From the NCBI RefSeq assembly GCF_001648895.1, contig NZ_LXUF01000001.1, positions 62,001-126,000 on the forward strand: 64,000 bases of DNA, read 5' to 3'. Origin of the DNA: Methylovorus sp. MM2 (GTDB lineage: Bacteria > Pseudomonadota > Gammaproteobacteria > Burkholderiales > Methylophilaceae). Under the pieces are notes generated by a model. The model ran no database searches, had not been told where the DNA came from, and worked only from the letters and a program-made list of their open reading frames with translations. Shown here one piece after another: positions 20,819-36,361 of this stretch (positions are counted from its first letter, which is position 1; each line of letters opens with the position of its first letter). Both the position numbers and the translations under genes were made by a program.

Positions 20819-22648
20819 ATGTGTGGAATCGTAGGTGCAGTAGCATCCCGTAATGTAGTACCAATGCTGATAGAAGGCCTCAGCCGGCTCGAATATCGCG
20901 GATATGATTCTGCAGGTGTGGCAGTGCTTGATGGCGATATCAAACGAGTCCGTGCAGTGGGTCGTGTCGCTGAGATGCAAAGCAAAGCAGATGCAGAGAA
21001 GCTCACAGGCTTTGTTGGTATCGGGCATACGCGTTGGGCGACACATGGCGGTGTAACGGAATCGAATGCACATCCACATGTATCTCGCAGTGAGATCGCC
21101 GTTGTTCACAATGGCATCATTGAGAACCATGATGAGCAACGTGATCATCTTAAAGCGCTAGGGTACGTGTTTGAGTCACAAACTGATACTGAAGTGATCG
21201 CTCACCTCATTCATTATTACACCGCACAGGATATGGATCTATTAGCGGCTGTTAAAAGCGCGGTTGCTAAATTAACGGGTGCGTTCGCTATCAGCGTTAT
21301 CTCACTAAAAGCACCTGATTATATGGTGTGCGCCCGTTTAGGTTGCCCTCTATTGATTGGTCTTGGCGAGGGTGAGAATTTTATTGCTTCTGATGTTTCT
21401 GCTGTGCTTTCAGTCACTCGTCGTGTCATCTATCTTGAAGATGGTGATGTAGGTGAGATTCGACGTGAAGGTGTGACGATATTCGATCGTAACGATGCGA
21501 TCGTTACACGTAAAGTGCATATGAGCGATGTGTCATTAGCGTCGATGGAGCTTGGCCCATACGCACATTTCATGCAAAAAGAGATCCATGAGCAGCCGCG
21601 TGCTCTAACGGATACGACCGAGGCTGCGATCGATGACGCTAGTTTCTCTACCGCACTGTTTGGCGCAGACGCGGCAGATGTACTGAACAATGTGGATAGC
21701 GTACTGATCTTGGCAGCAGGTACCAGTTATTACGCAGGGTTAACGGCCAAATATTGGCTCGAAAGTATCGCTAGAATCACAACCAATGTTGAGATCGCAA
21801 GTGAGTATAGATATCGCCAGTCAGTACCGAATCCTAAACAGTTGATTGTTACCATCTCGCAGTCTGGTGAAACTCTAGACACGATGGAAGCACTTAAACA
21901 TGCAAAGTCACTAGGACAAGAACAGACCTTAGCTATCTGTAATGTACAAGAAAGTGCTATCCCGCGAGCCTCGAAATTAGTGCTTTATACGCGTGCTGGT
22001 GCTGAGATCGGTGTTGCTTCAACGAAAGCGTTTACAACACAGCTCGTTGCTCTATTCACACTTGCCGTAACCTTGGCAAAACAGCGGGGCTTACTCACTC
22101 CTGAAAAAGAGCAAAGCTATCTTGATGAGTTGCGCCATTTGCCAGGCAGTATTCAGCATGCGTTGAATCTGGAACCGCAAATACGTGAATGGGCAAAGGC
22201 TTTCGCAAACAAGCAGAATGCCCTCTTTTTAGGCCGTGGTATGCATTACCCAATTGCTTTAGAGGGTGCATTGAAGCTAAAAGAGATCTCTTATATTCAT
22301 GCAGAAGCCTACCCCGCTGGTGAACTCAAGCATGGTCCTCTAGCCTTGGTCGATAAAGATATGCCGGTTGTGGTGATTGCTCCCAACGATGCCTTGCTTG
22401 AAAAAGTTAAATCTAACATGCAAGAGGTACGTGCACGTGGGGGTGAATTATTCGTGTTCGCTGATCTCGATAGCCATTTTACCGAAAGTGAAGGTGTACA
22501 TGTGATTCGTACACCTCGCCATGTGGGTGTGTTATCCCCTATTTTGCATACGATCCCAGTGCAACTGCTGGCTTACCACACAGCTTTGCTGAAAGGGACG
22601 GATGTGGATAAACCAAGAAATTTAGCCAAGTCTGTAACCGTCGAATAA
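20819..22648 (+). CDS. glmS: Glutamine--fructose-6-phosphate aminotransferase GlmS
   Basis: Converts fructose-6-P and glutamine to glucosamine-6-P. The 609-residue protein starts [13 protein letters not shown], with Cys2 becoming the N-terminal nucleophile of the glutaminase domain after Met removal. Two SIS sugar-isomerase domains follow (about 285-420 and 455-595), and the C-terminus [13 protein letters not shown] is the strongly conserved end. That 3' coding end is the recognition site of TnsD-type proteins (attTn7), and a Tn7-like end indeed begins 25 bp after the stop codon. Purine-rich AAGAGAA precedes the ATG. Confidence 0.99.
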
Positions 22649-22672
22649 TTTTTTTTAAAAAAGTATTGCACA

Positions 22673-22742
22673 TGTGTATCGGTAATAAAGTTGGAGCGCA
22701 CGCAATAAAGATAGAACGTACGGAATAAAGTTGGAACGTAGG
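22673..22742. mobile_element. Tn7-like transposon right end at attTn7
   Basis: Starting at the 25th base after the glmS stop, the sequence reads TGTGTATCGG followed by three imperfect 20-bp repeats with core AATAAAG. Classical Tn7 ends begin TGTG, then CGG, then a TnsB site with core AATAAAGT. The insertion point 25 bp after glmS and the orientation (right end next to glmS) are those of Tn7 by established knowledge. The five bases before it, GCACA (22668-22672), would be the target duplication. No tns genes are in the window, so this is a relic, a non-autonomous element, or one end of an island whose other end I could not find. Confidence 0.75.
22681..22740 (+). repeat. Three 20-bp tandem repeats resembling TnsB-binding sites
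   Basis: Units 22681-22700, 22701-22720 and 22721-22740 share AATAAAG at positions 4-10 of the unit and GA(A/G)CG(T/C)A at the end. Direct tandem packing of such sites is the feature of the right end in Tn7-family elements. Confidence 0.75.
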
Positions 22743-22751
22743 TTAAAATTA

Positions 22752-22791
22752 AAAAGGGCATCCATTAATTTGGCTGCCCTTTTATTTTTTT
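22752..22791. terminator. Probable bidirectional terminator between glmS and the STAS-like gene
   Basis: AAAAGGGCA (22752-22760) pairs with TGCCCTTTT (22775-22783), 9 bp with a 14-base loop, followed by a long T-run. On the other strand the A-run before the stem supplies a U-tract, so it can end both glmS readthrough and the convergent gene at 22804. Confidence 0.7.
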
Positions 22792-22803: not shown

Positions 22804-23124
22804 CTAAGCTAACGCAATAGCCTCACTAACCTTCAGATTTAGATTCTTAAGTCTGCGATTGATGGCAGATGCAATGGATTTAATAACCGCATCTTTTTCT
22901 GATTGAAATTGAACATTCTTTACCAACCAGTTAAGTCCTTGGCTGGCAACAATTACGCCAAACGCTTCATCGGCATATGATTCTGAGATCGAATGTACGT
23001 CTGATAGATCGATAGAAATAGTCTTTCCTTCACTAACAGCCAGCAGGATTTTTTGACGAACAACAGCTGCTGTCTTACGGGAAGACAGATCAGTACCATC
23101 AATATGAATTTGAATGTTGTCCAT
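22804..23124 (-). CDS. STAS-like domain protein (DUF4325 type)
   Basis: A 106-residue soluble protein. The central motif ISIDLSDVHSISESYADEAFG (residues 36-56) is the pattern of the STAS-like DUF4325 family, in which a buried strand is followed by the Ser/Tyr-Ala-Asp-Glu helix start. STAS-like folds are usually protein-interaction or switch modules, often next to a sensor ATPase; no such partner is intact here. AAGGAG lies 7 bases before the ATG. It faces glmS and sits just inside the Tn7-like end, so it is probably island cargo. Function unknown. Confidence 0.75.
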   Translation of the reverse strand: MDNIQIHIDGTDLSSRKTAAVVRQKILLAVSEGKTISIDLSDVHSISESYADEAFGVIVASQGLNWLVKNVQFQSEKDAVIKSIASAINRRLKNLNLKVSEAIALA

Positions 23125-23847: not shown

Positions 23848-26800
23848 GTGAAAATAACTAAAACTACGTCATCCTTAAGCATTAGAAAATTTATCACCTT
23901 TCTTGGCTTATTAAGCGCGGCTATTTTCACGGTACCTGCATTTGCAACTGGCTTTGTCGACCTGCCAGCAACAGGATTTACTGTGGGTGTCACCAAATCT
24001 CCTTATATAGCGTGTAATGAGACAGGTAATTTTGGGTCATCGGATATAACTCCCCCGTCGACTACAAGCAATAATGTTTGCGCAGTTTTTCCGGCAAATA
24101 GAACCACCTCTCCGATATCTGGGTATTCGGCTTTTGCCACACCGTCTACCCGTAACATTGTGATGAATAATTCATACACGAATAATACAAATGTCACGGT
24201 AGCCACAATAGAAGAGATTGTATGGAAAAAAGATGGGGCCATAGGTTCCGATGAATCTTGCATCTATGGATCACGATTTACCGCACTAGATGTGGATTAT
24301 TGGAAAGAATCCGGCCATGGCGGTCAGCAGACTCTAAGTATCAATGGCTTTGCTCGTGCAGGTTTTAGTAGCTTCACTGGATTGAATAGTGTGCAGATGG
24401 CTTATTACTACTCATCCGTGTCGGATGAGGTGATCTTCCGGGCAGGTCGCACCTTTACGTCAGTCCAGCACCGAGCAAGTCTTGCGGATGACGAGGTCGC
24501 GGCAATAGGGTATGTTGCCCGCCCCACGATCGCCAACGGTCCACCAGCCAGCGCACCCGTCAATGGTGTCGCTTCGTATACCGATCCTCTACCGGTTCCC
24601 ACTGACGCACAACAAGCAACGACAATTGATGCTAATTGGATCGAATTTACTACAGATGTTAACTATCTGGACGATGACGGTTCTTCGCTAGCAAACTCTT
24701 CTATGCTTTATGTCATGGTTACCGGTACCAAAGCGTGCCCTGCTTTGGAAGGTGGAGTACCGACACTTACTGATGATGCCTATAGCTTCCGCCAGACCGG
24801 ACAGGAAGAGGCGCCGTTACTCGAATTCAAGGTCGCCGGTTATATTCCGGGCGCTGCTAATGTTGGCGCAGTGACAACCACAAACCTGACAGCACCCACC
24901 ACCATCGCGGCGGGGGTAAGCACAACGCTTAGTGCAGCAGTTACGGGAGTATCGCCTACTGGTATCGTTACTTTCAAGGATGGTAGTACTACATTAGGTA
25001 CCGGCACATTGACTGGAAGTGGTGCAACGGCTACGGCGACCTTAAATATTGCTTTCAATACCATAGGTTCCCATATCATCACTGCAGAATATAGCGGAGA
25101 TGCTACTGATGCGCCAAGTGCTTCTGCAGGCCAGACAGTAGAGGTCACCATTGCACCTACCACGACTACTTTGACAGTAGCTTCAACTGCAGTAGCTGGG
25201 GCGAATGTGATGCTAACAGCAAACATTAGCAATGCTGCCGCGCCGACTGGAACGGTTACCTTTAAAGAGGGCGCTGCTATTTTGGGTACAGCTACTGTGG
25301 TTTCCGGAGTCGCCACATTTACTACCCAGTTCCTGACTGTCGGTACCCACACCAACCTGACTGCAGACTATGCTGGGGATAGCAATAACACCGCCAGCAC
25401 CTCTGCTGCCAAGACAATCAACATCACCATCGCGACAAGCACGACAGTGTTGACTACTAGTCTCAGCACAGCCGCGGTGAGTCAACCCGTTATTCTGACT
25501 GCAACTATTTTTGGTGCTGCACCAACGGGTACGGTGACATTCAAGGACGGAGCGACGACTCTTGGAACTGAAACCCTTGTTTCAGGAACCGTTAGCTATA
25601 CTGCCACATTCAGCACTGTGGCATCTCACAGCATTACTGCCGTTTATTCTGGCGACACTAACAATACCGCCAGCACTTCGCCAGCAAAAGTGATCAGTGT
25701 GGTCGCAAAGCTACCCACTACCACTGTTCTTACTACGGATATTCCTCAAGCAGTTTTGGGGCAGACCGTTATCTTGACAGCTGCTGTTACTGGATTCACG
25801 CCAACTGGTACGGTGACATTCAAAGATGGAACTACAACAAAGGGTACAGGCACTTTATCCGGCAGTGGCAATACAACGACAGCAACCTTAAGTACTAGCT
25901 TTACAACAGTAGCGTCTCATAGCTTGACTGCAGTTTATGCTGGGGACACAAATGATGCGACCAGTACTTCAGCTGCCGTTATCTTGCCAGTCAAAAATGC
26001 CACAACGACGGTGTTGTCACTTTCACCAAATCCAGTCATTGCTAATCAATCAGTGACTGCTACAGCCACTGTAACAGGCGCCACGCCTACAGGTGTCGTT
26101 GGTTTTTACGATAACTTCATCATCGTGGATGATCCCTTTACTGTAAATGGCCCGAATTTCCTAGGTAGTGCAACGATTACATCTGGTGTAGCAACGACCA
26201 CTATTCAACTGCCAGCTACTGGCACTCGCAAGATTGTCGCCTTTTATTATGGTTCAACCACTCATGTATCTAGCTCTGCTACACCAGTTGATGAGATTGT
26301 TAATCCAGGATCTTTAAGCACCATCACACTTAATGTGATGCCAACCCCGGTGTTTGTTAATCAAAGTATTAATCTGATAGCGACTGTAAATGGTAACAAC
26401 CCTACTGGCACAGTAACCTTCAAGGATGGCACTACGGTTATAGGGTCAATTGCAATGGTGAACGGTGTTGCGACGCTTAATACAAGCTTGACCACAGCGA
26501 GTACACATAGCATTACAGCATCATATGGAGGGGATTTAGCCAACGCTGGGGTTACATCTCCGGCAACGGCTTTGGTGGTCAGTGCAAAAACGACCACAAC
26601 TACAGTACTTACTGTTACCCCGACTCCAGCGACCATTGGTCAAACAGTTACCTTCACGGCAACTGTGACCGGATCCACACCAACAGGAACTGTAGACTTT
26701 AAACAGGTTTCCACCGGTAGCATTATCGGTACCGCAGCCGTTATGAATGGGATTGCCACCCTTACCAAAAGCTTTACTACTGCTGGAGCTCTGTCGTATA

Positions 26801-27285
26801 CAGCAACCTATTCAGGTGACACGAATAACAACACCAGCGTGTCGGCTGCAAAGAGTCTCACAATTACGGCTGGAAGCACCACAACGACGTTAAACATTTC
26901 ACCTAACCCCGTGGCTACTGGTCAGTCGGTCACCCTTACTGCGACAGTCATGGGAACTTCGCCGACAGGCACTGTGACCTTCAAAGAAGGAGCGACCATT
27001 TTGGGCACGGGCACTCTCAGTGGTGGAATAGCAACATTCAATACAAGCTACCCCGCAGTTGGTGATCATGTAATTACTGCCGTATATGGGGGCAGCACCG
27101 GCAACACTACTTCCACATCAGCTATTGTTAATTTGACAGTGGATCTAGCTGGGCCATTAGGAAATCAACAAAACACTTACGATGCTTTAGGACGACTAAT
27201 TAGTGTCCAGTACGGGAATGGAACGATTGTGAATTACTCCTATGACGCTACCGGTAATAGAACAGAATATACCGTAACGCCTTAA
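23848..27285 (+). CDS. Exported protein with eight Ig-like repeats and a YD-repeat tail
   Basis: The 1145-residue protein starts with GTG at 23848, supported by AAAGAGG seven bases upstream. A signal peptide (residues 1-34, ending VPAFA) is followed by a 300-residue N-domain I do not recognise, then eight bacterial Ig-like domains of the Big_3_5 type (about 337-1105), each with the core PTGTVTFKDG and ending in a YSGD/YAGD strand and a Thr-rich linker. The last 35 residues are a Rhs/YD unit (YDALGRLISVQYGNGT, then YSYDATGNRTEY). Such proteins are surface or secreted adhesin-like factors. The YD tail and the Rhs gene 74 bp downstream suggest that the two genes function together or once were one system. 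Gly/Thr/Ala-rich, Cys-poor composition fits export. Confidence 0.8.
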   Translation: MKITKTTSSLSIRKFITFLGLLSAAIFTVPAFATGFVDLPATGFTVGVTKSPYIACNETGNFGSSDITPPSTTSNNVCAVFPANRTTSPISGYSAFATPSTRNIVMNNSYTNNTNVTVATIEEIVWKKDGAIGSDESCIYGSRFTALDVDYWKESGHGGQQTLSINGFARAGFSSFTGLNSVQMAYYYSSVSDEVIFRAGRTFTSVQHRASLADDEVAAIGYVARPTIANGPPASAPVNGVASYTDPLPVPTDAQQATTIDANWIEFTTDVNYLDDDGSSLANSSMLYVMVTGTKACPALEGGVPTLTDDAYSFRQTGQEEAPLLEFKVAGYIPGAANVGAVTTTNLTAPTTIAAGVSTTLSAAVTGVSPTGIVTFKDGSTTLGTGTLTGSGATATATLNIAFNTIGSHIITAEYSGDATDAPSASAGQTVEVTIAPTTTTLTVASTAVAGANVMLTANISNAAAPTGTVTFKEGAAILGTATVVSGVATFTTQFLTVGTHTNLTADYAGDSNNTASTSAAKTINITIATSTTVLTTSLSTAAVSQPVILTATIFGAAPTGTVTFKDGATTLGTETLVSGTVSYTATFSTVASHSITAVYSGDTNNTASTSPAKVISVVAKLPTTTVLTTDIPQAVLGQTVILTAAVTGFTPTGTVTFKDGTTTKGTGTLSGSGNTTTATLSTSFTTVASHSLTAVYAGDTNDATSTSAAVILPVKNATTTVLSLSPNPVIANQSVTATATVTGATPTGVVGFYDNFIIVDDPFTVNGPNFLGSATITSGVATTTIQLPATGTRKIVAFYYGSTTHVSSSATPVDEIVNPGSLSTITLNVMPTPVFVNQSINLIATVNGNNPTGTVTFKDGTTVIGSIAMVNGVATLNTSLTTASTHSITASYGGDLANAGVTSPATALVVSAKTTTTTVLTVTPTPATIGQTVTFTATVTGSTPTGTVDFKQVSTGSIIGTAAVMNGIATLTKSFTTAGALSYTATYSGDTNNNTSVSAAKSLTITAGSTTTTLNISPNPVATGQSVTLTATVMGTSPTGTVTFKEGATILGTGTLSGGIATFNTSYPAVGDHVITAVYGGSTGNTTSTSAIVNLTVDLAGPLGNQQNTYDALGRLISVQYGNGTIVNYSYDATGNRTEYTVTP

Positions 27286-27359
27286 GACATGGGGTATACA
27301 AAAGTTAAAAGATAATCGACTTTAAAGATTAGCAACAGGTGAATTTCAGGGACAGCATA

Positions 27360-30300
27360 ATGAGAAAAAATCAAAGCATCTTAAAGAATCTTAAAGCAAT
27401 TCCTACGATCACTCGAACTCTTACGAGTTTCGTGGCATTTAGTGTTGGCATCGCAATGACTAACGCTCTTGCTGCCAATGAACCTAATCTTGCTAACGCA
27501 GAAGTCACCATTGAGGGTCAAGGGACTATTGTTACTAAACCCGGAGCACTTGTCTCATTTAAACAATATGAAGAGTTGCAGAAGGTTCGCACTCTACCTC
27601 AGAACATCTACAACAGTACCTTAGGCACTAAATCTGAAAAGAGCGCAGCGATAGCAGCTTCGAGAGTCGCCTTTGATAATGGCCCAATAGCACCGTCTTC
27701 CATTACAGAGTTGGCTCGGGCGTTACGCTACGACCCGGATCTGATTTATGCCTATGTACATGACAATATCGAATTTAGTCCTGTATGGGGTATTCAGAAA
27801 GGCGCATTAGGCGCTATTCTAGATAATCAAGGGACTGCTGCTGATCAAGCTAGCCTGATGGTTCAATTATTAAGAGCATCAGGCTATACAGCTAGCTATG
27901 TAGTGGGGGTGATTAACTTAAGTGCACAGGACGTGAAGGAATTATTCGCGCAAGAAAACTTAAATAATTGTGCTGCGGTAAATATGCTGGGGATGTCTCA
28001 GATTCCAGCTTTGATAAGCCCTTTTCCTGCTTGCAATGATAGCCCTTACATCAGTAATACGAGCATCTATCATGTGTGGGTAAAGGTGAACATTGACGGA
28101 ACGGATTATGTTTTTGATCCCGCGTTCAAAAAACATCAATTTAAATCAGGAATAGATATTGGGTCTTTGTCAGGCTTCGATTTCACAAGCTATACCAATT
28201 CAGCCATGATTGGCGCAACTGAAACGCCAAACTATATCCAATCAATCAACCGCACCAATATTCGTAATAATTTGAATACCTATGCTTCCAATTTTGCAAC
28301 ATGGTTGCGCATAAATAAACCTACAGCAACTTTGGATGATGTCATTGGTGGTGCGACCATTATACCAACATCAGATACGCACCTACGTCAGACTTCTTTG
28401 CCAAATCAGAACTTTGGCGAGTCGACCTTTTACTGGGATGAGCTCCCTAATTATTTAAGAGTCACTATTCGCATGCAATTGCCCGGCATAGACGAGACTT
28501 TATTTATGGATGATATATATGGCAAACGATTGACAGTCACTTACAACGCTTCCAGACAACCAATCATCAAGCTTGATGGTGCTCAAGTGGGCACAACAGG
28601 TATCGCTGGGGCAGCTAATACTAAACAAGACATCAATTTCACAGTGCTGCATAACGCATATGTTGAAAATTTTGCGAATCAAAATTTTCAATCAAGTATC
28701 AACGTGGGAGGGACATACTTTATAGCCAATAGTGTCGGTTATGTAGGCCGAGGCCTAGTACAAAAGTTTCGGATGGCAGCTCAAGATAAGTTGGCTCAAG
28801 GCGTCGTAAGCACTGATGAAACGGTCATGGGGTCAAGCTTAGGTTCTCTGGGAGCACTGTACTCTGCACAAGTTGCGACGACTATTTATACTACCGGCAA
28901 GATATTCAATTCCCAGATTGCTCTTCATCATCAGGTGGGTATAGCCGGATATGCTAATTCGACCACTTATGTTGATTTTGCAGGAACATCTGCTTCTTCA
29001 ATTAGCAACTCGTTGGACAACTCATCGTGGAAAGCATCTGCTTACAGTATCACTACACATGGCAGCATTCTAGAATCAACTGCTGTTAATCAAGCGTTAA
29101 ACTCACCAGCAGTTTCTACAGTTGAACTTATCGATCGGGCGGTTGTGCTTGGCCAACCAGTGTATGACGCTACTTCAGCAAACTATATCGCTGCAGTAAA
29201 GCCAAATCTAACCGGCTGCAATGCAGCTCAGTTAACTTATTACCAGACCCTTCTTGATACGCCCAATAGAAGACTAATTCTACCTAAGAGCTGTTCTATC
29301 GTGCAGGGCACATTCACTGGTTTTGGTTTATTTGCATTGACTGAATACAGTGATGGTCATCTGGGAGTCGGAGCGATTATCCATGGGGGGATATTTGGAG
29401 GCGCATCTACATCTCTATTTGCACCGGCATCACTAGCTGAATACATTGGAGTGTATAACGTTCCAAGCATATGGGGTGAATTAGGATTTCTTGCACAGCT
29501 TGGATTGACGAATTTTAATACTATTAATACCTATACTGACCCTATTGATATGGCGCGAGGGAACTATCTGTATGAGCACACAGACATGAGCGTCGGAGTT
29601 GGTGATCAAGCACTGGCATTAACTCGTCAGTATAGTTCAGGGATTAATACGATTGCCGGCCCATTCGGCAAAGGATGGACCCACAATTATGATTCCAGCG
29701 CCTCTGTCGGTTCAGATGGATTTCAAGGCATGGGAGAGGATTCTGCACTTGATGCAGTGGGAACTTTAGTCGAACAAAAGGTCGCCTATGAAATTTTAAA
29801 GTCCGATCTAACATTGCCTTTAAATAAGATGGTAATGGTGACTTTGGGAGCAAAATGGTTTGGCGACCAACTCATTGATAATACCGTTTTGGTAAATACC
29901 GGTTTAAAAGGTGAGTTATTTGTAAAACTCCCTGATGGAACTTATAACCCGCCGCCAGGAAAATCACCCCGCCTGACTCTAAATGCTGGGGCATATACCT
30001 ACGAGACGGTTAATCGCGAGAAATCAGTTTATAACTTAAGCACTGCAACCAATGGTGCAAATAAGATCGCAAGCTACACTACACCTAGCGGTTTAAAGGT
30101 GCTTTACACTTATTCAGGTGCGAATCTGACTTCAGTAAAAAATAGCGTAGGTAGGACGCTTACTTTCACTTATGTGAGCAATCGCATTACTCAAATAGCT
30201 GACGGTAATAGCCGTACCGTCAAATATGCTTACGATACAACTACCGGCAATGCTAACAGTGGGACGCTTCTTAAATTTACCGATAGTTTAGTCAAAGATA

Positions 30301-33300
30301 CGACATATCAATATGCAGCTGGACGAATGACCAAGTTGTTCTATCCTAGCTTTCCCTTTACTCCCGCCGCCCTCAACACTTATGACACATTGGGTCGTGT
30401 ACAAACGCAAACCAATGCCGTTGGTGGACTTTATAGTTATTATTTTGCGGGTAGTCGCTCGGAAGAGGTCGGACCTAATGGCAGAAGTTTAGTCAGTTAT
30501 TTCGATAGCTTAGGTAACGTTACCAAGTCGATCGACCCACTTGGCCGAATAACGCTTAACACATACGACGGGCAATCACGTTTGGTAAAGAAACAGGCGC
30601 CTGAAGGTAACACCATAGAATATACCTATGATGATTATCCTTGTGCCAACGCAGATATGCGTTGTACACAAAACGTAAAGACCATCGTGAAAACCCCGAA
30701 ACCTGGTTCTAGCCTTGCGCCAATTTCAAACAGTTTCACCTATGAAAGTGCTTTTAATAAAGTCGCGACTGCAACCGATGGTCGAGGGAACATAACGACT
30801 TACACATACACTACTTTCGGAAGTCCGCTTACAGTTACCTCACCTACAGATAGTAATGGTGTAGCACCTCTTACAACCTACGCTTATACCACTTTCACAC
30901 CGACAGCTACAGGCTTCACAACTTTTCCCTTTAATCTGCAAACAGGTCAAACGGTAAAAACTACTGCAAGTAATACCGTTACGAATACTACAAATTACAA
31001 TACCGCTGCTTTGAAGTTTGTACCTCTGAGTACGGTGCAAGACTCAGGAAGTGGCAAACTTAATATTACTAATACTTTCACCTATGATGCGGTAGGTAAT
31101 TTGACCATCTTGGATGGGCCAAGAGCTGATGTGACAGACACCGTAACTACTACTTATGATGTAGCACGGCAACCGACACAGATTACTGATGGTCTAGGGA
31201 AGCTCACAAAATTAACTTACGATGCCGATGGTCGTCTAACAATCCAGGCTAAACAGATTGGTACAGCATGGCACGTTAGTTGTACTACGTATTCAGCTAG
31301 CGGTAAGCCACTAAAGACATGGGGAGCCGCACAAACCGCCTTAGCAACTACATGCTCTTATCCAGCGCCTCCTGTTACCGTTACTGACTATACATACGAT
31401 TTATTAGATCGAGCTGCCACTGTTACGCAAAATCTTCCTGTCAGTGAAGGTGGCAATCGTGTGAGCCAGATCAATTACAATCTTGACGACACTGTACAAA
31501 GCACAATGCAAGGAGTGGGTACTCCACTTGAGCAGACTTACGCCGCTTATACCTATACATTAAACGGATTAAGAGCCACGATTAAAGATGCTAAAAACAA
31601 TCTCATTACCTATACGTATGATGGATTCGATAGACTAGCTCAAACCAATTATCCAGATCCAACTTCGCCTAATGTTTCATCCTCCACTGATTACACTCAG
31701 GCGGATTATGATGCAAATAATAATATAACTAGCTTTAGGACTCGCAAAGGCACCTCCATTACGCAAAACTGGGATAATCTTAATCGTCTGGTTGAACGTA
31801 ATTATTCGAACCCTGCTGATAGCCTAGCCTTCAGTTACGACCTGCGTGGCCTTAAAACACTTAGCAAATATACAAGTGCTACCGATTCCATTGTGAATAC
31901 TTGGGACAATGTAGGACGCTTGAAAGATACAACTACTCGCGGTCATGCTATTAGTTATCTCTATGATGCAGCCAGTAACCGTATCAGAACGACTTGGCCG
32001 GACAGCTACTATACGACGACTAGTTTTGATGCGTTGAATCGTCCTTTGATAATCAAAGAGAACGGCTCCGTAAACTTAGTCAATTATGCTTACGATGATC
32101 TTTCTCGCCGCACTACTACCACTCTTGGAAATAGTACAAGTACGGGTTACCTATATGATACGCAGGGCGGATTAGCAAGCCTCGAACATAATCTATCTGG
32201 TACGGCAGAAGACGTAAAATTCAGCTATGCCTATAACCAATTACAGGAAATCAAGAGTAACTACACTAGTAATAGCTTGTATATACACTCCTCCAGTCCG
32301 GTAACAAGTACATATATTGCCAATGGACTAAATCAATATACAGAGCAAACACAGAACGCCGCTAACCTATCTTATGGGTATGATGAAAACGGTAACTTAA
32401 CATCCGAAAATGCCAACACACTGAGCTATGATGAAGATAGCCGCCTGACAGGACAATCAGTAGGTGCGGCTACGCTCAGTTATGATTCAGAAAGTCGTTT
32501 GATTAAAACAATCATCAATGGAACAGAGACTCAACTTCTTTATGACGGCACTCGTTTGGTCGCTGAATATGATAATGCTGGAGCACTCCTGAAACGCTAT
32601 GTTCATGGAAGCGCTGTAGATGAACCCGTAGTAAGTTACGATGGTACTGGTACATCTAACAAGAATTGGTATTACGCCAATAACCAAGGCAGTATCGTTG
32701 CATTGGCAAACTCCTCAGGGACAGCTATAGCCACCTATACATATAGTGCCGAAGGCATGCCAGGTGGTACATCGGGCGGTCGATTTAGGTATACCGGCCA
32801 GCAAAATCTAGACGGCATGGGTATTTACTATTACAAAGCAAGAATGTATTCCTATGAGTTGGGCCGCTTCTTGCAAACAGATCCTATAGGCATTGAAGAT
32901 GATATGAATCTCTATGCATATGCAAGCAATAATTCAATTAATAGAGGGGACTCCACTGGATTGGCGGGGATCGCATTTAGAAATGGATTCTCTGGTGAGT
33001 CATATCAAGTAGCTGGATTAAGTGATGTTTGGAGTTCAGTAAAGAGTGGAACAAGAAGTGCGTGGAGCATGATAGATCCTCCAGGACCCCATCAGTACAG
33101 TTATAGCTACAATGTTTGTAATGGATGTGATGCCTCGGTAGTAAGCCGAACCTCAAATTATTATTCGGTACCCTTTTTAGATCTGGATCCACCACAAGGT
33201 TATATGCTTTTAGCAGGTAATAATCCAATTAATCACGGATTTGATGGGACAACTTGGATGAATTCAACTTTACCTGGCCATATGTTTACCGGACGAGTTA

Positions 33301-33518
33301 TAGGCGATACTTCATCGGACGTATATGGTAATGTAAGTATCAATGTTACTGGAACAGGAACTGGATTTGCTCCTCGATTTAATGAGTTCGTGGGTGGGAT
33401 TTATTTTGGTGGGGTTTGGCCTGCAGCAACTTATATTGATCTTAAATATAACGCAGCTAAAGATTATTTAATTGATCAGTATTACATTTGGACGATTAAT
33501 TCATTAAGACAACATTAG
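27360..33518 (+). CDS. Giant exported Rhs/YD-repeat protein with transglutaminase-like N-region and variable tip
   Basis: I place the start at ATG 27360 (2052 residues) because AGGGA lies seven bases upstream; an in-frame GTG exists at 27339. A signal peptide (ending NALA) is followed by a transglutaminase-like region (about 125-270) with LMVQLLRASGYTASYVVG, YHVWVKV and FDPAFK, but no Cys at the nucleophile position. From about 726 a Rhs N-terminal segment (DMARGNYLYEHTDMSV, then LTRQYSSG and GPFGKGWTHNYD) begins, then many YD repeats, then the Rhs core RYTGQQNLDGMGIYYYKARM, LGRFLQTDPIG, NLYAYASNNS (about 1807-1868). The last 184 residues are unrelated to the core and form the variable tip, where polymorphic toxins carry their effector. 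The lipoprotein gene begins 7 bp after the stop. Confidence 0.85.
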   Translation: MRKNQSILKNLKAIPTITRTLTSFVAFSVGIAMTNALAANEPNLANAEVTIEGQGTIVTKPGALVSFKQYEELQKVRTLPQNIYNSTLGTKSEKSAAIAASRVAFDNGPIAPSSITELARALRYDPDLIYAYVHDNIEFSPVWGIQKGALGAILDNQGTAADQASLMVQLLRASGYTASYVVGVINLSAQDVKELFAQENLNNCAAVNMLGMSQIPALISPFPACNDSPYISNTSIYHVWVKVNIDGTDYVFDPAFKKHQFKSGIDIGSLSGFDFTSYTNSAMIGATETPNYIQSINRTNIRNNLNTYASNFATWLRINKPTATLDDVIGGATIIPTSDTHLRQTSLPNQNFGESTFYWDELPNYLRVTIRMQLPGIDETLFMDDIYGKRLTVTYNASRQPIIKLDGAQVGTTGIAGAANTKQDINFTVLHNAYVENFANQNFQSSINVGGTYFIANSVGYVGRGLVQKFRMAAQDKLAQGVVSTDETVMGSSLGSLGALYSAQVATTIYTTGKIFNSQIALHHQVGIAGYANSTTYVDFAGTSASSISNSLDNSSWKASAYSITTHGSILESTAVNQALNSPAVSTVELIDRAVVLGQPVYDATSANYIAAVKPNLTGCNAAQLTYYQTLLDTPNRRLILPKSCSIVQGTFTGFGLFALTEYSDGHLGVGAIIHGGIFGGASTSLFAPASLAEYIGVYNVPSIWGELGFLAQLGLTNFNTINTYTDPIDMARGNYLYEHTDMSVGVGDQALALTRQYSSGINTIAGPFGKGWTHNYDSSASVGSDGFQGMGEDSALDAVGTLVEQKVAYEILKSDLTLPLNKMVMVTLGAKWFGDQLIDNTVLVNTGLKGELFVKLPDGTYNPPPGKSPRLTLNAGAYTYETVNREKSVYNLSTATNGANKIASYTTPSGLKVLYTYSGANLTSVKNSVGRTLTFTYVSNRITQIADGNSRTVKYAYDTTTGNANSGTLLKFTDSLVKDTTYQYAAGRMTKLFYPSFPFTPAALNTYDTLGRVQTQTNAVGGLYSYYFAGSRSEEVGPNGRSLVSYFDSLGNVTKSIDPLGRITLNTYDGQSRLVKKQAPEGNTIEYTYDDYPCANADMRCTQNVKTIVKTPKPGSSLAPISNSFTYESAFNKVATATDGRGNITTYTYTTFGSPLTVTSPTDSNGVAPLTTYAYTTFTPTATGFTTFPFNLQTGQTVKTTASNTVTNTTNYNTAALKFVPLSTVQDSGSGKLNITNTFTYDAVGNLTILDGPRADVTDTVTTTYDVARQPTQITDGLGKLTKLTYDADGRLTIQAKQIGTAWHVSCTTYSASGKPLKTWGAAQTALATTCSYPAPPVTVTDYTYDLLDRAATVTQNLPVSEGGNRVSQINYNLDDTVQSTMQGVGTPLEQTYAAYTYTLNGLRATIKDAKNNLITYTYDGFDRLAQTNYPDPTSPNVSSSTDYTQADYDANNNITSFRTRKGTSITQNWDNLNRLVERNYSNPADSLAFSYDLRGLKTLSKYTSATDSIVNTWDNVGRLKDTTTRGHAISYLYDAASNRIRTTWPDSYYTTTSFDALNRPLIIKENGSVNLVNYAYDDLSRRTTTTLGNSTSTGYLYDTQGGLASLEHNLSGTAEDVKFSYAYNQLQEIKSNYTSNSLYIHSSSPVTSTYIANGLNQYTEQTQNAANLSYGYDENGNLTSENANTLSYDEDSRLTGQSVGAATLSYDSESRLIKTIINGTETQLLYDGTRLVAEYDNAGALLKRYVHGSAVDEPVVSYDGTGTSNKNWYYANNQGSIVALANSSGTAIATYTYSAEGMPGGTSGGRFRYTGQQNLDGMGIYYYKARMYSYELGRFLQTDPIGIEDDMNLYAYASNNSINRGDSTGLAGIAFRNGFSGESYQVAGLSDVWSSVKSGTRSAWSMIDPPGPHQYSYSYNVCNGCDASVVSRTSNYYSVPFLDLDPPQGYMLLAGNNPINHGFDGTTWMNSTLPGHMFTGRVIGDTSSDVYGNVSINVTGTGTGFAPRFNEFVGGIYFGGVWPAATYIDLKYNAAKDYLIDQYYIWTINSLRQH

Positions 33519-33525
33519 GTATACG

Positions 33526-33948
33526 ATGATGATTAGATTTCTAATATTTGTAATTCTGGTACCTATAATTACAAGTTGTACCTCCGAAAGGCGGCCGCCC
33601 TTATATAGCCTGGAAGTTTATACTACTCATCAAACACGATATGAAGTGGTCGATTTGGTAAAGAAATTTGCACTAAGAGAAAATTTGATTCAATCAAATA
33701 ATTACGAATCCCCCTCCCCTACAGAAGCAAGCGTGTCAATAAACTTTGCAGATGCGCCACAAAAAAACGCTTGGTTATGGGTAAGTAATGAGAATTTAGT
33801 TAACAAAGAACATGTGCAGGTTTTCATTTTCAGACTTGCTAAAGATGAAACCTGTGATATTTGTAAGAAATTAGAATCAAGTGATGAAATGAAAGCGATT
33901 AAGGAAAAGTTTGAAATCCACAATGTTGTGAAAAATGGTAATTGGTGA
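33526..33948 (+). CDS. Small lipoprotein, candidate immunity protein for the Rhs tip
   Basis: The 140-residue protein starts MMIRFLIFVILVPIITSC; the lipobox ITSC makes Cys18 the likely lipidation site, so it is anchored in the envelope. The mature part is charged and contains WLWVSNENLV and CDICKKLES; I recognise no family. It lies 7 bp after the Rhs stop, where Rhs immunity genes are typically encoded. An envelope-located immunity protein would fit a toxin acting in the periplasm. That role is inference from position and size. Confidence 0.6.
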   Translation: MMIRFLIFVILVPIITSCTSERRPPLYSLEVYTTHQTRYEVVDLVKKFALRENLIQSNNYESPSPTEASVSINFADAPQKNAWLWVSNENLVNKEHVQVFIFRLAKDETCDICKKLESSDEMKAIKEKFEIHNVVKNGNW

Positions 33949-34021: not shown

Positions 34022-34324
34022 ATGAATATTAAATTCATACAACTGTATGAAGACGTAGAGATGTATATAAAACATGCTTTGGGCATGTTCACAGATGAAT
34101 TTATAGCTATTACTTTTGGGAAAGTATTAAGAGATCTTCGGAAGTCTCAAGGAAAATCACAAGAAGTCTTGGGATTGGATGCTGGACTTGAGCGAACGTT
34201 TATTTCAATGTTGGAGTTGGGGCAACGAGGCCCTTCACTTGCAACTCAAGTAAAGCTTGCAGAAGGATTGAATATTTCTTTAAAAGAACTAATTGATATG
34301 TTCGAGACAGAATTATTAAAGTGA
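34022..34324 (+). CDS. XRE-family HTH transcriptional regulator
   Basis: A protein of up to 100 residues. The C-terminal 70 residues are a Cro/CI-type HTH: FGKVLRDLRKSQGKSQEVLG, then ERTFISMLELGQRGPSLAT and KLAEGLNISLKELI. The first ATG is at 34022, but the family core starts near ITFGKVL, so ATG 34085 (MFTDEF) is also plausible; neither has a strong ribosome-binding site. It follows the Rhs/lipoprotein pair in the same direction and may regulate it or be unrelated island cargo. Confidence 0.75.
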   Translation: MNIKFIQLYEDVEMYIKHALGMFTDEFIAITFGKVLRDLRKSQGKSQEVLGLDAGLERTFISMLELGQRGPSLATQVKLAEGLNISLKELIDMFETELLK

Positions 34325-34475
34325 AATGAACATGTCAGCACAATGGTTGATTGGATCGAAACCAATCTTCCACGCATCATGGAAGTAAGAGATGCGAGTG
34401 GATTACTAAAAGTTAAAGACCAATAACTGTTGATCTCTTAGTTATTATTAGTCTTTATTGGTTTTAGGTAACTCG
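34325..34475. other. Gap between HTH gene and trpS, likely island boundary
   Basis: Short frames only: 34343-34426 would encode 27 residues ending GLLKVKDQ, in the style of a protein C-terminus, possibly a relic. ACCAATAA (34419-34426) pairs with TTATTGGT (34455-34462) and could act as a weak terminator for trpS on the minus strand. If the attTn7 island ends before trpS, its left end should lie about here, but I see no clear TnsB-type sites. Confidence 0.35.
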
Positions 34476-35492
34476 TTAGTAGCTTGGCGAACGGCCAAGC
34501 ATAGCCTTAGTGACTTTCTCTAAGGTACGTTTCGCTGATATACGTGCCATTGCAGCGCCTTGAGCAAGTATCTCATCCAGTTTTTCTGGCTGGGCCAACA
34601 ATGTCTCATAAGTCTCACGAGGCTTTTCAAGATATACGGTGATAGCTTCTAGAAGTAGATTCTTGGCATCACCATAACCCATCTTACCTTTTACAAAGCT
34701 ACTACGCATGAATGCGATCTGATCAGCTGTAGCAAAATTCTGATAAAGCTGGAATATCGTAGATGTGTCTGGGTCTTTAGGCTCATTTGGTAATTTCGAA
34801 TCTGTGACGATGCGCATCACGGATTTCTTTAATTGCCCTGGTTCAGCAAAAATGGGAATGTAATTATCGTAACTCTTACTCATCTTACGACCATCAAGAC
34901 CCGGGATCGCATTAGCAGTTTCCTGAATGACAGGTTCTGGCATCGATAATATCTGTTTGTTATAGATGTGGTTAAAACTACCAGATATGTCGCGTGCAAA
35001 CTCTACATGTTGTTTCTGATCTTGCCCGACCGGAACAACGTCTGCGTTATAAAGCAGAATATCAGCTGCCATGAGCGTCGGATAAGTGAATAGCCCCATA
35101 TTAACCCCAGCATCTGGATCATCACCCTTCTCAGTGTTACGATCGACCACAGCTTTGTAAGCATGAGAACGATTCATCAGGCCTTTGCCTGTGACATTCA
35201 TCAATAGTGTAGATAGTGCATAGACCTCAGGGATATCAGACTGGCGGAATAATGCCGCCTTAGTGGTATCAAGTCCTAGTGCCAGAAATGTCGCCGCAAT
35301 CTCATAAGTGTTCCGATTAATGGCTTTACTATCACGTACAGCATTTAGCGCATGTAAGTCAGCAATAAACACATAAGCACGTTTTGCCTGACTAGATAAT
35401 TCAATGACAGGCTTCACTGCACCAACCATATTGCCTAGATGTGGTGTGCCAGTTGGTTTGATGCCAGTAAGAACGGTTTTTTCTGAGTACAT
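34476..35492 (-). CDS. trpS: Tryptophanyl-tRNA synthetase
   Basis: Class I synthetase charging tRNA-Trp. The 338-residue protein has the HIGH-equivalent TGTPHLGN (residues 14-21) and the KMSKS loop GRKMSKSYDNYIP near residue 201, with the TrpRS pattern of DQKQHVEFARDI between them. Length fits the compact bacterial type. It is the last gene of a minus-strand run (argS, SPOR, dsbA, SDR, trpS) and borders the accessory region. Confidence 0.98.
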   Translation of the reverse strand: MYSEKTVLTGIKPTGTPHLGNMVGAVKPVIELSSQAKRAYVFIADLHALNAVRDSKAINRNTYEIAATFLALGLDTTKAALFRQSDIPEVYALSTLLMNVTGKGLMNRSHAYKAVVDRNTEKGDDPDAGVNMGLFTYPTLMAADILLYNADVVPVGQDQKQHVEFARDISGSFNHIYNKQILSMPEPVIQETANAIPGLDGRKMSKSYDNYIPIFAEPGQLKKSVMRIVTDSKLPNEPKDPDTSTIFQLYQNFATADQIAFMRSSFVKGKMGYGDAKNLLLEAITVYLEKPRETYETLLAQPEKLDEILAQGAAMARISAKRTLEKVTKAMLGRSPSY

Positions 35493-35548: not shown

Positions 35549-36361
35549 TTATTCTGCTCTAGATTTATGTGGGGCATCTTTGGCTAACCAATCCCACCAT
35601 GCGGCTGGAAGTATATGCATGAGTCTTGCAATCACGCCCATTTGCCATGGGATCACGACAAACCGGCGCTTTGCCGCGATGGCTTTGGCGAATTTAGTGA
35701 CGGCAACATCTACATCCATTAGGAACGGCATTCTGTAGGTATTGATATCAGTCATTGGAGTACGAATATACCCTGGTGCGATAGTGGTAACTTGGATATT
35801 CGATTTGATCATCTCGACGCGTAAGCTTTCAAGATACTTGATCGCAGCTGCCTTAGATGCGCTGTAAGCACCTGCTCCGGGTAGGCCTCGTACACCAGCA
35901 ACACTTGCGATACCAACAAGCTGACCATGCCCTTGATTCTTCATGGCTTGGATAAAAGGTTGGAACGTGTGCACTAGCCCCAAGACATTGATCTCCATCA
36001 TCATCTTGAAAGCTTCAATATCCTCTTTGTATTCAGTCAGTGTGCCGCGACTAACGCCTGCATTACCGATGACGATATCAGGTACACCGAAGCGTTCTAT
36101 AAAATCCTTCGCCGCTTGATCCATCGCGATGGCATCTCTGACATCTAGAGGATAGATGACACAGTCTTTACCCAATTGATTTGCAAATGAGGTTAATTGA
36201 GCTTGTCGTCTAGCGACTAGCCCTAAGATGGCACCTTGTTTGGCATAGTAATCTGCCAATGCTTGGCCAATTCCACTGGAAGCACCAGTGATAAACACTT
36301 TTAAAGTAGAAACCCGCTGCGGATTTTGAGTCGACACAGCGGGTTTAAGGGTTTGGGTCAT
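35549..36361 (-). CDS. Short-chain dehydrogenase/reductase
   Basis: The 270-residue protein has the classical SDR pattern: cofactor loop TGASSGIG (residues 25-32), NAG in VIGNAGVSRG, catalytic Ser, and YSASK (Tyr near 165, Lys near 169). An Arg pair after the second strand (VARRQAQL) suggests NADP(H) preference, which is inference. Substrate unknown. It is 15 bp after dsbA and 56 bp before trpS. Confidence 0.88.
   Translation of the reverse strand: MTQTLKPAVSTQNPQRVSTLKVFITGASSGIGQALADYYAKQGAILGLVARRQAQLTSFANQLGKDCVIYPLDVRDAIAMDQAAKDFIERFGVPDIVIGNAGVSRGTLTEYKEDIEAFKMMMEINVLGLVHTFQPFIQAMKNQGHGQLVGIASVAGVRGLPGAGAYSASKAAAIKYLESLRVEMIKSNIQVTTIAPGYIRTPMTDINTYRMPFLMDVDVAVTKFAKAIAAKRRFVVIPWQMGVIARLMHILPAAWWDWLAKDAPHKSRAE

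Follow-up and report, generated by a model that had tools for sequence, protein, structure and literature searches.

Probable relic of a Tn7-like transposon at the attTn7 site of Methylovorus sp. MM2, and a foreign-type trpS beside it

Positions 22673-22743 of the window, that is, of the whole 64,000-nucleotide stretch of Methylovorus sp. MM2 DNA that was analyzed, are almost certainly the right end of a Tn7-like transposon at attTn7, because the position of this sequence, its repeat array, the elements of relatives and the ranks of its sites with scoring matrices all agree. The element itself is in all likelihood a relic, since no left end and no piece of a tns gene was found in the window and no match to TnsB, rve or TniQ in the genome. 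As a specimen this right end is new; in kind it is known, and it is ordinary.

The end behind glmS

The gene, the end and the sequence directly following it are arranged as follows.

20819..22648, plus strand: glmS, 609 aa, an open reading frame with GlmS proteins of relatives up to 90% identical; the 3' end of the gene serves as attTn7 docking sequence and target of TnsD (PMC2918618)
22668..22672, no strand: GCACA, from reading of the sequence a candidate 5-bp target duplication, glmS-side copy only
22673..22683, plus strand: terminal 11 bp of the right end, TGTGTATCGGT; Tn7 of R721 and related elements have an equal 11 bp from terminus to core
22684..22703, plus strand: TnsB-type site 1, AATAAAGTTGGAGCGCACGC (repeat scan, alignment, site matrices)
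22704..22723, plus strand: TnsB-type site 2, AATAAAGATAGAACGTACGG (repeat scan, alignment, site matrices; rank 5 with the broader matrix)
22724..22743, plus strand: TnsB-type site 3, AATAAAGTTGGAACGTAGGT (repeat scan, alignment, site matrices; top-scoring position of the window)
22745..22790, no strand: hairpin and T-run, an inverted repeat and probable terminator separating glmS from the convergent gene that follows

The preliminary description had proposed a Tn7-like end here that starts 25 bases past the glmS stop and carries three tandem 20-bp units with the core AATAAAG, and these points were all confirmed. Between the stop and TGTGTATCGGT lie 24 bases and the 25th, 22673, is the first of the end, which thus faces the gene at the distance of about 25 bp expected of a Tn7-like right end. 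The terminus itself, TGTGTATCGGT, agrees with the TGT or TGTG of such ends, and a close array of TnsB-type sites in one orientation follows. The cores begin at 22684, 22704 and 22724, in exact 20-bp steps, and 14 of the 20 columns are identical across all three units. When the 120 bases behind glmS were shuffled 20,000 times, no shuffle reached 14 identical columns, the maximum being 9. In the 2.42-Mb genome the two-unit pattern, with two mismatches or fewer allowed, was found only as two overlapping pairs behind glmS, and the reversed control gave 0.

Scoring of TnsB motifs against related right ends, which had been proposed as a check, gave the same answer. Site matrices were built without Methylovorus sp. 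MM2, one from 15 sites of the four nearest elements and one from 33 sites of eight elements. With the four-element matrix the three sites took ranks 1, 2 and 3 when both strands of the window were scored, and with the eight-element matrix they took ranks 1, 2 and 5 in the window.

According to PMC11406308 and PMC2918618, Tn7 docks at glmS; the latter puts its insertion point about 20 bp downstream of the gene and about 25 bp away from where TnsD binds in the glmS 3' end. The window resembles the right end of Tn7 on plasmid R721 (NC_002525) in the TGTG terminus, in the 11 bp to the first AATAAAG and in the spacing of the further sites. The R721 end reads TGTGGGCGGAC, then AATAAAG, with more sites at 20-21-bp steps. 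PMC11406308 gives four sites for the Tn7 right end, compared with three in the window; the second half of the first site is TCTTAAAC in Tn7 and of the TTGGAACG type in the window; and tnsA lies directly inside the Tn7 right end, whereas the window is without tns genes.

Elements and glmS loci in the family

Position, terminus and repeats of the end match those of complete elements at glmS in three relatives, G176, G162 and G181. These elements are 42.3, 29.6 and 53.3 kb long and are flanked on both sides by TGAGC, ATATT and AATTG, respectively (duplications identified by eye). Each has its right end at glmS, a tnsABCD operon, and a left end in which three inverted sites are spaced by 56 and 67-68 bp. 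The window shares their right-end geometry and place, but these elements have the operon, the left end and the 5-bp duplication, and the second halves of their sites are mostly TTGTACCC/TTGTATCG or TTCTTTCC. In G162 the order of the operon is TnsA-like, TnsB, TnsC (TniB/AAA), TnsD (PF15978 and TniQ) and a fifth gene, and its TnsB matches the Tn7 TnsB of 7pik with an E value of 1.5e-134. The operon proteins have relatives in G176, G181, G199 and G119, the G199 stretch covering part of the operon. The fifth gene was considered as TnsE and rejected, for although it is kept in four other elements it has no Pfam, NCBIfam or PDB match.

By eye, the unit type of the window is closest to that of the element in G199 (L057, L071), which belongs to the same family and has the TTGGAACG second half, three sites and 24 bp between glmS and the end. 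Unlike the window, it retains tnsA, tnsB, tnsC and TniQ, with TnsA and a Mu-transposase-C protein found behind glmS, and its cargo differs. No left end was found in the G199 stretch read. At L057:3805-5846 its cargo contains an E1 gene of the ThiF type together with an E2-like gene, the E2 match being just below the cut-off, possibly a bacterial ubiquitin-like system. A search with the G199 TnsB matched 32 of the 187 genomes of the family. Near relatives of this type, with 52-54% identity, are in G176, G162, G181 and G119. More distant matches occur in 27 further genomes, and some distant matches are second copies in the near-relative genomes. In G199, G176, G162 and G181 the contig that carries glmS also carries the near TnsB, at a distance of 5-46 kb; in G119 the two are on different contigs.

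When the 187 genomes were scanned, a GlmS match was obtained in 166, and the stretch behind glmS was taken from 122, Methylovorus sp. MM2 included. The glmS ends were derived by two methods and no end differed; 120 of the stretches, all but those of G151 and G170, were long enough for the test. At 11 of the 120 testable loci, including that of Methylovorus sp. MM2, two cores stand 20 bp from each other at an offset of 33-37 behind glmS, a proportion that is not an unbiased rate since the sample includes genomes picked for array or TnsB matches. The same test at shifted control positions gave 0 of 2656. None of the relatives searched is of the same genus, so the comparison has no close empty site. 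The two-unit pattern with one mismatch occurs in 10 of the 187 genomes, again with Methylovorus sp. MM2 among them. Besides this strain, the array stands directly behind glmS in G109, G176, G180 and G199, and weaker or shifted arrays are present in G119, G029 and G098. The distance from glmS to the end is 23-25 bp in 11 tabulated relatives, with 18 bp in G029 and 16 bp in G098. The second halves of the units vary by element: TTGGAACG, TTGTACCC, TTCTTTCC, TATCATAC and TTTGGTCA were seen.

It is barely credible that the repeats are instead a regulatory or terminator array linked to glmS and unrelated to transposition: they do sit between glmS and the probable terminator, but such arrays form the termini of complete elements with duplications in three relatives, their unit sequence varies among elements, and a conserved regulatory array was rejected on the absence of the two cores at this offset from 109 of the 120 testable loci. 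The same count disposes of the concern, raised in advance, that the 70 bp might stand behind glmS in many relatives free of any element.

Some further ends and gene pairs were noticed during the survey. Two AATAAAGTCTGTCGG-type units 20 bp apart, after TGA-N8, are present in G143, G154 and G170 (L037, L038, L039) behind an ammonium transporter gene, identified with Pfam in G143. By appearance they are right ends belonging to a Tn7-like family that docks elsewhere; Tns proteins gave no match in the stretches of these three genomes read. Behind the glmS right end of G109 (L054:11229-13461) lies what we take to be an IstA/IstB-like pair. The left end in G181 (L078) abuts two more sites of a different type, and that in G162 (L075) abuts one more, near the contig end; we read these abutting sites as older ends. 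Insertion of one element beside another, giving multiple ends, is mentioned in PMC8649781.

Left end and transposition genes

A left end was sought by geometry, with a scan that detects the left ends of G176, G162 and G181, and nothing was found in the window; the site matrix, applied to the other strand of the island, gave best scores that were low and scattered. By both approaches no left end was seen in 41 kb of the window. There is no further cluster of sites in the genome, and single-site matches numbered 8, three of them being the sites of the window, compared with 11 in the reversed control. A matching left end followed by GCACA, as the preliminary description had envisaged, did not turn up: between 22745 and 36500 there are 14 further GCACA, none after a left end with AATAAAG-type sites. 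The spaced inverted TnsB sites that mark the left end of a complete element were thus not found in the window.

The genes of an autonomous element, tnsA, tnsB, tnsC and TniQ-TnsD, were likewise not found, TnsB and TniQ being sought genome-wide and TnsA and TnsC within the window. Searched against the window with tblastn, the Tns proteins, including TnsA and TnsC, gave nothing better than an E value of 0.11, and no transposase was among the 21 open reading frames checked with Pfam, as had been claimed at the outset. These 21 belong to 69 listed frames of at least 100 aa, many of the other 48 being overlapping frames. In the genome there was no match to TnsB, although a very different TnsB could escape the search, and none to TniQ, which was matched in the same search in all five TnsB-bearing relatives (G162, G176, G181, G199 and G119). 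No match to rve was found in the genome either, a result that says little because rve also missed the TnsB of G199 and G162. The element had been described as a relic, as non-autonomous, or as having its machinery elsewhere; the first of these fits best, the last found no support, and the second, if still movable, would require a left end, of which none was found.

A complete non-autonomous Tn7-like element, with a left end too diverged to be seen and movable by an incoming related TnsABCD, is improbable. Its right end is well preserved, with three sites, and at 34338 a GCACA is preceded by TCA, which leaves room for an end that would read TGA from outside. However, this candidate has no AATAAAG at +11 and the strict left-end geometry of the three complete elements is unmatched anywhere in the window. 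About 0.4 coincidences of GCACA after TCA are expected among 14 GCACA by our estimate, so that about one is unsurprising, and the candidate was taken as chance and rejected as a left-end duplication.

The adjoining island and the exchange of trpS

Inside the end, a group of genes is followed by a block that also lies downstream of glmS in some relatives.

22804..23124, minus strand: STAS-like DUF4325 protein, 106 aa, first gene inside the end (Pfam PF14213, E 5e-10)
23848..27285, plus strand: 1145-aa protein with repeated Ig-like domains and an RHS repeat (Pfam)
27339..33518, plus strand: 2059-aa RHS/YD-repeat protein with RHS-associated core (TIGR03696, PF05593, PF20148, PF01841), probably a polymorphic toxin
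33526..33948, plus strand: 140-aa protein with no family match, in the position where an immunity partner would be expected
34022..34324, plus strand: helix-turn-helix regulator, 100 aa (PF01381)
34476..35492, minus strand: trpS, 338 aa, foreign type (above the TIGR00233 cut-off; best NCBIfam score to NF009207, below its cut-off)
35549..36361, minus strand: SDR gene, first of the block SDR-dsbA-SPOR-argS-priA

The DUF4325 protein and the regulator gave only general HTH matches against PADLOC. The order SDR-dsbA-SPOR-argS-priA behind glmS is common to G001, G034, G016 and G011, and is found from dsbA on in G004, making 5 of the 10 relatives fetched; the other 5, like the four array-bearing relatives, lack the block in the stretch read.

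The trpS gene has been swapped, since the native locus is intact without trpS and the sole trpS found in the genome, that of the window, is of a foreign type. A second genome match to trpS is weak (E 9e-4) and is, in our reading, tyrS. Among 22 relatives in the family the best trpS match is a frame of about 400 aa in 19, of a further type in G010 and G018, and no more than weak in G012 (76% complete). In G001, G016 and G005 trpS sits after a PHP gene, a TsaC-like gene and an M50 protease gene and before scpA, scpB and rluB, with an SMR gene after trpS in G016; the SMR label was tested, and the other six are assumed by us. In Methylovorus sp. MM2 the same gene order (L268) is intact except for trpS, and 13 bp separate the protease gene from the SMR gene, so the native copy is cleanly gone and the foreign type stands in the glmS island. 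Contrary to the earlier expectation that glmS would run directly into trpS in relatives free of the insertion, there was no trpS behind glmS in the 14 relatives searched downstream.

The window trpS has its best matches, at 66-68% identity, in two Anaerolineae-type MAGs labelled Anaerolineales, one labelled Anaerolineae, an uncultured proteobacterium and an alphaproteobacterium from sheep colon, among the best 80 of 377 relatives. The 80 corresponding trpS loci, many of them on short contigs, were searched with the Tns proteins, GlmS and the island proteins except TrpS (tblastn, 1e-6) and gave no match; the control with TrpS matched 80 of 80. In G010 (L265) and G018 (L174) the best match is yet another TrpS type, and in G010 the gene adjoins what is presumably a guaA-like gene.

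Arrival of trpS with the transposon is only possible, since no left end encloses trpS and since G010 and G018 point to changes of trpS type in the family without a known link to Tn7. The chances are nearly even that the right end is a relic but that the Rhs cluster and trpS were acquired at this hotspot in separate events and never belonged to the cargo. In G001 the interval from glmS to SDR is filled with quite different genes, the SDR block lies at varying distances from glmS in five relatives, which marks the region as variable, the Rhs and trpS genes are not bracketed by any left end found, and the two relatives with another TrpS type as best match belong to two other genera. Against this, the Rhs cluster and trpS are directly inside the right end, and the third-position GC of these genes is 30-41% compared with 43-49% in the measured SDR-priA genes, a weak argument given that glmS itself has 40.5%. 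We consider it somewhat less likely than not that trpS is former transposon cargo.

If the end is read as the relic of an insertion, a TnsD-type selector would have bound the 3' end of glmS and TnsABC would have placed the element 24 bp beyond the stop, the right end facing the gene, and duplicated GCACA, a step reconstructed from one end. TnsB would bind the three 20-bp units. Later loss of the left end and of the transposition genes would have left a copy immobile by itself, and the DUF4325, Ig/Rhs, regulator and trpS genes that separate the end from the SDR gene may, in part or in whole, be former cargo. Much more tentatively, and as a whole rather unlikely, a Tn7-like element might have brought the foreign trpS to attTn7, whereupon the native trpS was lost and the island became indispensable as the transposon decayed; the right end may then still protect the glmS site from newcomers of the same TnsB type. 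In G181 and G162, both of genus g7 and perhaps not independent, the sites of the newcomer element differ in type from the older abutting sites.

We found no paper on Tn7-like elements in Methylophilaceae, as judged from titles and the beginnings of abstracts, and none that combines "Tn7-like", "aminoacyl-tRNA synthetase" and "cargo". Tn7-like elements with several types of site have used attTn7 repeatedly in this family. A lone right end records a past insertion that surveys starting from TnsB genes, such as that in PMC8649781, would miss. The parts worth following are the trpS swap and the contribution that the lone end might make to target immunity: a clean swap of trpS beside a right end raises, in a concrete instance, the question of whether cargo can be made indispensable by Tn7-like elements.
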